From a virus, in the IMG/VR virus record IMGVR_UViG_3300017727_002768, positions 1-27,537 of that record: a stretch of 27,537 nucleotides of DNA; one strand, 5' to 3'. A program made the position numbers and the translations under genes. Below, piece by piece: positions 23,410-25,110 of this stretch. Under the pieces are notes generated by a model. That model was not told the origin of the DNA. It saw only the letters and a program-made list of their open reading frames with translations, and searched no databases. Each line of letters begins with the position of its first letter. Position 1 is the stretch's first letter.

Positions 23410-25110
23410 ATGAAGAAGCAAGATAAAATTGACTGGAATTTTCACATCAATTTTAGTCCTTTATATTTTGTGTTTGCAGTTATGGTATTAATGGCAATAT
23501 CATTTAATGCAGAAGCAGAAGAGATAGAGGAAGTTGTGGTAGTGGCACAACAATCTAAGACAGTAGAAGCAGACCCCCTAGAAGGAACATCCTTAATAAG
23601 AGTACTATTACCTGCCCACACATGGACGGCTGGCGGACAAGGTGCTTTCCAAGGTTACAATGAACGTGGTGCTCAGACTGTACACACCGCAGTATATAAA
23701 AATGGAATACCGGCAAATTTGCCTGGTAGTGCATGGTATGACTTTGGAACAGAACTAGCAACTGGACAAAGTATTAAAATTATATCAGGTGCAAATAGTG
23801 TTGTATATGGTAGTGGTAGTATTGCTGGAACTATATTAATAAAAGATAAAATTGAAAAAGGTGTTACAGTAAGTGCTGGATCACAGAGCAGTAAATATGT
23901 AAGCCTTGCACCAAGCGATTGGTTTCAATATACAGCAATGGAAGTTAATCAAGATAGTGTGAGAAACGACAATACAGAAAAAGACTTATACACAAATAGA
24001 AATGCAAAGTTTAATTTTGATGTACAAGACTTTACAATAGCAATGGATTACACAGATTATGAATATGGTTATGATAATTGTTGGGCGGCAGATTTCTCTT
24101 CATCAAATGACTGTAAACAAGATGGTGAAAAATATAATGTTGCAGTAAATAATGAATACTTTACAATAGGTAGAACACATGATAAAGCACATTACTTTAC
24201 AGGTGAATATGAATCATATTGGAATGAAAGCAGTACAGATTATTTAAGAGTTGGTGACCAAACTAACCTATCACAAAAACTGCAAATTGCATATGGTGTT
24301 GATGCTAGTCATGAACAATATCTAACTGCTGGCGGAGACCATAACAGAGACAACTATGGTGCATACTTGAATATAAATGCCGACTTTGCCATGAAATATA
24401 ACTTTGGTTTTAGGGTTGGCAACGAAGACCAAAATGCATTAAGATTTGGACTTGAAAAAGGAGCATTCTTTTTGAATGTTGGAAATAGTTTTAGAAGACC
24501 TACATTGTATGAATTAAATGGCGACAGTTGGGTTGATGCTAACTTAGACTTGTTACCAGAAGAAGGTATAGGTTATGAACTTGGATTTGGTGTGTTAAGT
24601 ATCTTTAAATATGAATTTGAAGAAGCAATTGAATATACACCAGGTGGTTCTAATGATGTTATCACTGTAACATATGATGAAGATGGTAATGCAACATCAA
24701 CGACTACAACAGAGTATTACAATGCAAAGTATTACAATACAGGTGCATACGATACACAAGGAGTTAGATACTCACAAATGTTTGGTAATTTTGGTATTAC
24801 ATTAAAATACACAGATACTGAACAAGCAAGAGTACCTAAGTATATTGGTGTTGTAAGTTGGGATCAAAGTTTTGGTAGTCATAACTTTAACATTACTTAT
24901 AGAGGACAGTTTGAAAGAATACCTGGACTGTATGATGGTAGTGAGTTGGAAGATTTAGAAAATTTATCTTTTAGATATATTAAAACTTTTGACAGCGAAC
25001 TTGAACTAGCATTGAACATAGATAATATGTTAGATGAAGAAGTAGAAGTTCTTCCTGGTTATGATAGCCGTGGAAGACAAATTAGGTTGACACTTCAAAG
25101 GAAATGGTAG
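23410..25110 (+). CDS. TonB-dependent outer-membrane receptor, phage-encoded
   Basis: The 566-residue protein starts with a signal peptide: a positive and polar N-terminus, a hydrophobic run near 17-32, and likely cleavage after 'NAEA' (residue 36). A TonB-box-like 'IEEVVVVAQ' follows at about 39-47. The plug domain (about 50-147) has 'NERGAQTVHTAVYKNGIP' and 'ISGANSVVYGSGSIAGTILI', the hallmark plug ending. The remainder is a beta-barrel with alternating aromatic strands, ending 'NIDNMLDEEVEVLPGYDSRGR...LQRKW' with a terminal aromatic residue, as BamA substrates have. BtuB is 614 residues, so this is a small, apparently intact receptor. ATG 23410 has GGAG six bases upstream; an in-frame GTG at 23386 lies inside the leader hairpins and is rejected. 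Ligand unknown (cobalamin, iron chelate or other). AT-rich codon use matches its neighbours. Confidence 0.88.
   Translation: MKKQDKIDWNFHINFSPLYFVFAVMVLMAISFNAEAEEIEEVVVVAQQSKTVEADPLEGTSLIRVLLPAHTWTAGGQGAFQGYNERGAQTVHTAVYKNGIPANLPGSAWYDFGTELATGQSIKIISGANSVVYGSGSIAGTILIKDKIEKGVTVSAGSQSSKYVSLAPSDWFQYTAMEVNQDSVRNDNTEKDLYTNRNAKFNFDVQDFTIAMDYTDYEYGYDNCWAADFSSSNDCKQDGEKYNVAVNNEYFTIGRTHDKAHYFTGEYESYWNESSTDYLRVGDQTNLSQKLQIAYGVDASHEQYLTAGGDHNRDNYGAYLNINADFAMKYNFGFRVGNEDQNALRFGLEKGAFFLNVGNSFRRPTLYELNGDSWVDANLDLLPEEGIGYELGFGVLSIFKYEFEEAIEYTPGGSNDVITVTYDEDGNATSTTTTEYYNAKYYNTGAYDTQGVRYSQMFGNFGITLKYTDTEQARVPKYIGVVSWDQSFGSHNFNITYRGQFERIPGLYDGSELEDLENLSFRYIKTFDSELELALNIDNMLDEEVEVLPGYDSRGRQIRLTLQRKW

Follow-up and report, generated by a model that had tools for sequence, protein, structure and literature searches.

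Phage auxiliary genes mostly encode intracellular enzymes; the locus described here encodes a receptor of the outer membrane. The window analysed here is a whole virus record of 27,537 bases, which includes terminase, tail sheath, UvsX-like and UvsW-like genes, and the preliminary description had assigned its ORF at 23410..25110 (plus strand, as are the features placed below between 22169 and 26579) to a complete TonB-dependent receptor of a T4-like phage. The ORF starts with ATG at 23410, ends with the stop codon at 25108-25110 and comprises 566 codons. As had been claimed, it has a ribosome-binding site of its own (GGAG, 23401..23404); an in-frame GTG at 23386 was considered as an alternative start and discarded, because both the GGAG site and the conservation of the start favour 23410. 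We judged residues 1-36 (23410..23517) to be a signal peptide by eye rather than with a signal-peptide program, from the sequence and from the helix at residues 9-33 of the model, which is followed by AEA/EE. The TonB box EEVVVVA (residues 40-46, 23527..23547) was recognised by its conservation and by a simple pattern that matches 55 of the 59 relatives in the alignment; of the four without a match, at least two are truncated N-terminally. The plug domain (residues 48-147, 23551..23850) matched Pfam Plug PF07715 with an E value of 5.3e-8, above the Pfam cut-off, and all 59 relatives were positive too.

The barrel required a different kind of evidence. The Pfam barrel model PF00593 found no match in the window receptor and matched only 2 of the 59 relatives, so that the assignment of residues 151-566 (23860..25107) to a 22-stranded beta-barrel rests on the structure model and on the match to solved receptors. 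The AlphaFold model built from the 59-relative alignment reached a mean pLDDT of 88 and a pTM of 0.83 (pLDDT was 42.5 with 14 sequences), and we counted 22 barrel strands after the plug on its DSSP line; the last residue of the protein is W566. Structure prediction, which with a Foldseek search had been put forward as the check on this assignment, thus yielded a 22-strand barrel with a plug, and in the structural realignment described below this model matched BtuB over 500 residues at 2.2 A. Taken together, the ORF, the Pfam match, the profile search, the model and the fold match leave hardly any doubt that the gene encodes a complete TonB-dependent receptor, BtuB-like and 566 residues long. 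The N-termini of the family have signal peptides of two dissimilar types (NFHxNFSP in 29 of 59 members and MExF.. in 20 of 59), both of which occur within one group of close receptors (L028 as compared with L029), and none of the other reading frames in these loci contains either motif. To judge from the sequences, the signal peptides seem to have been swapped as modules.

The assignment to a T4-like phage has to be refined. The named terminases nearest to that of the window were those of PA5oct-type jumbo Pseudomonas phages (56% identity), and contigs related to the window reached 340 kb. The plug match was present exactly once in 10 of 11 related records, among them those of 340, 250 and 217 kb, and absent from the 86.6 kb of the related contig L176. 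Successive scans of viral contigs for the receptor gave 24 and 46 loci; when the query was made more diverse, 173 of 277 candidate stretches were confirmed, and the best 80 were kept. In a further scan the loci were chosen by their helicase gene, regardless of the receptor, and among the best 80 of 225 helicase loci, a choice that is biased to phages near the window, the receptor was upstream in 72 (directly upstream in 69, and within three genes or at the contig edge in 3). Of the remainder, one contig was too short and seven had no receptor upstream of the helicase, although four of these seven carry one elsewhere; L176, in which the plug match was absent, is another of the seven. The receptor gene is therefore a property of a marine lineage of very large phages, in which it is near-standard. 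Its cellular character is the one thing that would speak for a host/phage chimera or a passenger host gene. However, two further contigs carry the same gene, which differs at 6 nucleotides in one of them and at 1 in the other; of 81 distinct loci, 51 show the same arrangement, and a single receptor was present in 10 of 11 related contigs of up to 340 kb. These recurrent loci refute the chimera or passenger reading, which we consider practically impossible, and with it the misassembly that the preliminary description had named as a danger.

Relatives outside this lineage were scarce. Among 50,697 named phage records, the sole matches to the receptor were two filed as Acinetobacter phage MD-2021a; in the one of the two that we examined the gene lies among tryptophan and other cellular genes, so that the record is bacterial DNA, and Ab105-3phi was rejected as a phage carrier on account of a likewise bacterial gene neighbourhood. 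The records concerned, CAKLQH02 and KT588073, are filed as Acinetobacter phages and contain ordinary bacterial gene neighbourhoods. A tblastn search with the relative L103 matched no named phage, and Pseudomonas phage Y13 is a candidate record that carries no annotation. In bacterial genomes, short-pattern scans (74 and 27 candidate stretches) gave no confirmed relative, the patterns being such that they could miss distant ones. No phage-encoded TonB-dependent receptor was recognised in the literature from the titles and abstract starts of open-licence papers; candidate papers turned out to deal with a host riboswitch and with bacterial tubulins. The databases themselves offer precedents only as hints. 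One is phrog_5687, which PHROGs labels as of unknown function: E. coli BtuB hits it at 6.4e-51, which makes it a TonB-dependent receptor family, and the hits of the window receptor's own family to it are weak (1e-4 to 1e-10). The named phage records matching BtuB were mostly bacterial-looking contigs or short fragments. The other hint is a single BFVD entry, A0A8D9FQQ5, "TonB-dependent receptor SusC" of an uncultured marine phage, which was the best viral fold match (E 2e-14) but differs from the window receptor in being of the SusC type, 805 residues long and 11% identical.

The gene lies between an AAA ATPase gene (22169..23209; phrog_1250, NrdC.10-like in named phages) and a UvsW-like DNA helicase gene (25122..26579), both identified by family matches, and this order was kept in 51 of the 81 distinct receptor loci that remained after removing those with identical 3' ends. 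Upstream of the receptor, an intrinsic terminator (23276..23300; 11 pairs, 8 of them G-C) closes the ATPase side, and 47 of the 60 upstream regions compared have a terminator-like stem, with a sequence that varies among relatives and a pairing that is kept. It is followed by a sigma-70-type promoter, TTGACT-16-TATAAT (23330..23357), with 11 of 12 consensus bases, which bears out the strong promoter that had been proposed for the gene. The pattern TTGAC-16..19-TATAAT was found upstream of the receptor in 53 of 60 distinct regions, compared with 174 of 1376 other plus-strand ORFs, a background that takes in operon-internal genes. A perfect sigma-70-type promoter for the helicase (25087..25116, 12 of 12 bases) extends across the last codons and the stop of the receptor, where TTGACA makes up Leu-Thr codons in the window, and the same pattern was kept at 46 of 59 related receptor-helicase junctions; the C-terminus of the receptor may thus double as the helicase promoter. 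The receptor would be transcribed from its own strong promoter during infection, and the host machinery would export it and insert it into the outer membrane.

In the wider neighbourhood, a gene for an SAH/MTA nucleosidase (MTAN) was near the receptor in 34 of the 81 loci, ending 1-2 bases upstream of it in nine, and one for SAM synthetase (MetK) in 25; the two were never together in the available flanks, one or the other was present in 59 loci, and neither in 22, many of which are short. In the nucleosidase-receptor arrangement, a protein of about 90 residues that lacks a family match is encoded after the receptor (L033 11757-12035 and relatives). In one group of loci the receptor lies amid baseplate-like and lysozyme genes, as it might if the barrel were a virion or assembly component placed in or on the particle. 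In that group, however, the receptor is on the opposite strand, within a small MTAN-receptor-orf90 group, and its signal peptide and TonB box indicate the host outer membrane, so that we deem a role in the particle very improbable.

No match to TonB_C or MotA_ExbB was obtained in any of the six large related contigs tested, and the energy would accordingly have to come from the host, the TonB/ExbB/ExbD complex of which would act on the receptor through the TonB box. The receptor of the window would then be an importer, a function that we hold to be probable, and the evidence on its cargo comes first from comparison with solved receptors. When all PDB sequences were searched with a profile built from the 59 relatives, six distinct sequences were matched, all of them BtuB (E 9e-13 to 5e-12). 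When 998 chains were realigned with VIA-align 2, the first 15 of the best 50 matches were B12 transporters without exception (Z 37.9 to 32.7), headed by BtuB 2gsk_A (Z 37.9, rmsd 2.2 A, 500 residues aligned); FhuA (30.7), ZnuD and haem receptors came next (Z 30.7-30.1) and other receptor families lower. The receptor shares with E. coli BtuB (TIGR01779; PDB 2gsk, 1nqh) the plug and barrel, the TonB box, the 22 strands and acidic L2 and L3 loops on the ligand side. It differs in being only 19-20% identical in structural alignments, in an invariant cysteine pair in L3, in having 17 residues fewer in the TonB-labile half-plug and in being phage-encoded. The next-best fold matches, Bacteroides BtuB1 and BtuB3 (PDB 8blw, 8p98, 8bmx; Z 32.7-34.2), are 15-17% identical and pair with surface lipoproteins (BtuG).

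The likeness is one of fold and profile rather than of family membership. TIGR01779 (TonB-B12) matched 43 of the 59 members at E <= 0.01, whereas against the cut-offs of the BtuB equivalogs TIGR01779 and NF007926 (599.7 and 836 bits) the best of nine phage proteins reached 75.3 and 70.2, far below them, E. coli BtuB scoring 903 and 1112 bits as a control. The window receptor had no match in NCBIfam. We therefore say that the receptor likely works like BtuB, while by the NCBI cut-off it is not a BtuB. Together with the haemoglobin/transferrin receptor model TIGR01786, which matched 34 of the 59 members, the low equivalog scores and the lack of an NCBIfam match make the ligand less certain. The same model, TIGR01785 (17 of 59 members) and Foldseek, which placed the siderophore receptor PirA first (5.6e-21) and BtuB second (1.6e-20), would suit an active importer of iron, as haem or siderophore, or of a different ligand, for instance a peptide or nucleoside-like compound, in place of a cobamide. 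So would the iron needed by a class Ia ribonucleotide reductase and by the two di-iron-like proteins of the window. Nevertheless, the PDB profile search matched BtuB chains only, and in the realignment the B12 transporters had a lead of about 2 to 7 Z units. We thus regard this reading as unlikely, and the iron uptake suggested earlier as weak, BtuB having been the sole solved receptor that the profile search matched.

Conservation within the family bears on whether the receptor has a fixed ligand. In the 14 closest pairs dN/dS was 0.07-0.21, i.e. the gene is under purifying selection. Weighted conservation (1 being invariant) was 0.65 over the mature protein, 0.83 in the TonB box (residues 39-47) and, beyond residue 76, 0.80-0.82 in the plug. 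Loops L2, L3, L6, L7, L9, L10 and L11 reached 0.70-0.77, more than the strands (0.63), in a comparison confined to the phage family; L4 (0.62), L8 (0.46), L5 (0.39) and L1 (0.34) were less conserved. The acidic loop L2 (23962..23991), with R185, N186, D187, N188, E190, D192 and Y194, is highly conserved, and L3 (24064..24126), with D222 and the cysteine pair C224/C235, is conserved too; D187, N188, E190, D192, D222, C224, N233 and C235 are invariant. The calcium-site aspartates of BtuB lie in its L2 and L3. The invariant acidic residues of the phage receptor are in the loops that match these, and they do not align one for one with the aspartates of the calcium cage. In BtuB, as described in PMC7360065, five aspartates hold the calcium at two sites close to the ligand.

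Since most extracellular loops are more conserved than the strands, a fixed ligand is favoured and a decoy disfavoured. The latter belongs with the proposals that the receptor manipulates the cell surface, by replacing, competing with or masking a host receptor against rival phages, or by acting as a decoy for phage debris. Phages classically use BtuB and FhuA as receptors (PMC8624392), and the FhuA-Llp complex 8a60 was among our structural matches. L5 and L8 are variable (0.39 and 0.46), and the receptor has diverged more rapidly than the genes next to it (mean distance 0.47, vs 0.20 for the helicase, in 70 loci) and follows the helicase less well than the ATPase does (Mantel r 0.48, vs 0.76 for ATPase-helicase in 55 loci). 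This faster divergence and weaker tracking also indicate that receptor alleles have probably been exchanged in part. On the other hand, masking would need neither the TonB box nor the plug, yet few parts of the protein are as conserved as these, and the majority of the outer loops are conserved as well; a surface role consequently appears improbable to us. Of the four functions first proposed, uptake on the cobalamin side is thus the best supported, BtuB being closest by profile and by fold and the ligand-facing loops being conserved, and receptor replacement, superinfection block and decoy are less so, as the loops that would be free to vary under them are conserved.

A B12-dependent ribonucleotide reductase was considered as a user of the cobamide and dropped, since the enzyme of the lineage, tested in L197, is of the iron class Ia. 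No B12 riboswitch was detected in the window, neither CobS nor Peripla_BP_2 (periplasmic B12-binding type) in the six large related contigs, and B12-binding domains were present in only 3 of 10 related contigs. These results speak against a cobamide as the cargo. The preliminary description had listed three Fe- or Fe-S-dependent proteins in the window, which is plausible: two are adjacent paralogous di-iron ferritin-like proteins of the R2/AurF type (8191-10407, weak matches), and the third is a radical SAM protein (11063-12748). The R2/AurF-like pair is not an ordinary NrdB, which sits with NrdA in L197. The suggestion that the radical SAM protein may use B12 finds a B12-binding-like match in its favour, although this scored 28.7 bits and the Pfam cut-off is 32.1; its top NCBIfam match is a B12-binding radical SAM family, again below the cut-off, and it had no PHROGs match at E 0.01.

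We believe, by a slight preference, that host TonB drives the receptor as an active importer, the cargo of which is probably a cobamide-like cofactor that would aid the infected host. The receptor would capture a single scarce ligand, constant throughout the lineage, and hand it to host transporters; this ligand would most likely be a cobamide (vitamin B12 type) or another large cofactor of that sort. That the cargo is specifically a cobamide is a guess to which we give somewhat less than an even chance. Most loci carry MTAN or MetK, and the window encodes the B12-binding-like radical SAM protein at 11063-12748; the likely benefit would accordingly be support of methyl/SAM metabolism through a long jumbo-phage infection, in which the cobamide would be of use to the chemistry of methionine and SAM and to radical SAM proteins that depend on B12, as that of the window may. 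The link between the receptor and MTAN or MetK may, however, be mere synteny.

The plug has a feature that is family-wide. The distance from the TonB box to the GG motif was 35 residues in all 56 members in which both landmarks could be located (out of 59), vs 52 in E. coli BtuB, and in the alignment the 17 absent residues fall within BtuB residues 23-73. PMC5413942 reports that pulling by TonB unfolds the BtuB half-plug that holds residues 23-73. We infer that the trim eases the opening of the receptor. As a tentative and rather doubtful extension, the trimmed force-labile half-plug, opening with less TonB work, may allow fast cobamide uptake for the methyl/SAM chemistry of phage and host, through a gene that is near-core in marine jumbo phages. 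In any case, this family-wide trim of 17 residues is a natural test of the model, set out in PMC5413942, in which TonB opens the gate when it unfolds the first half-plug.

Should the import reading be true, these phages would place a TonB-coupled transporter in the outer membrane, and infection would alter what the cell takes up from seawater. They would also display on the cell surface a phage-made copy of a usual entry point of phages and colicins. Vitamin B12 is limiting for many marine microbes, and our results suggest that a phage may supply its infected host with a scarce cofactor through an outer-membrane gate of its own.
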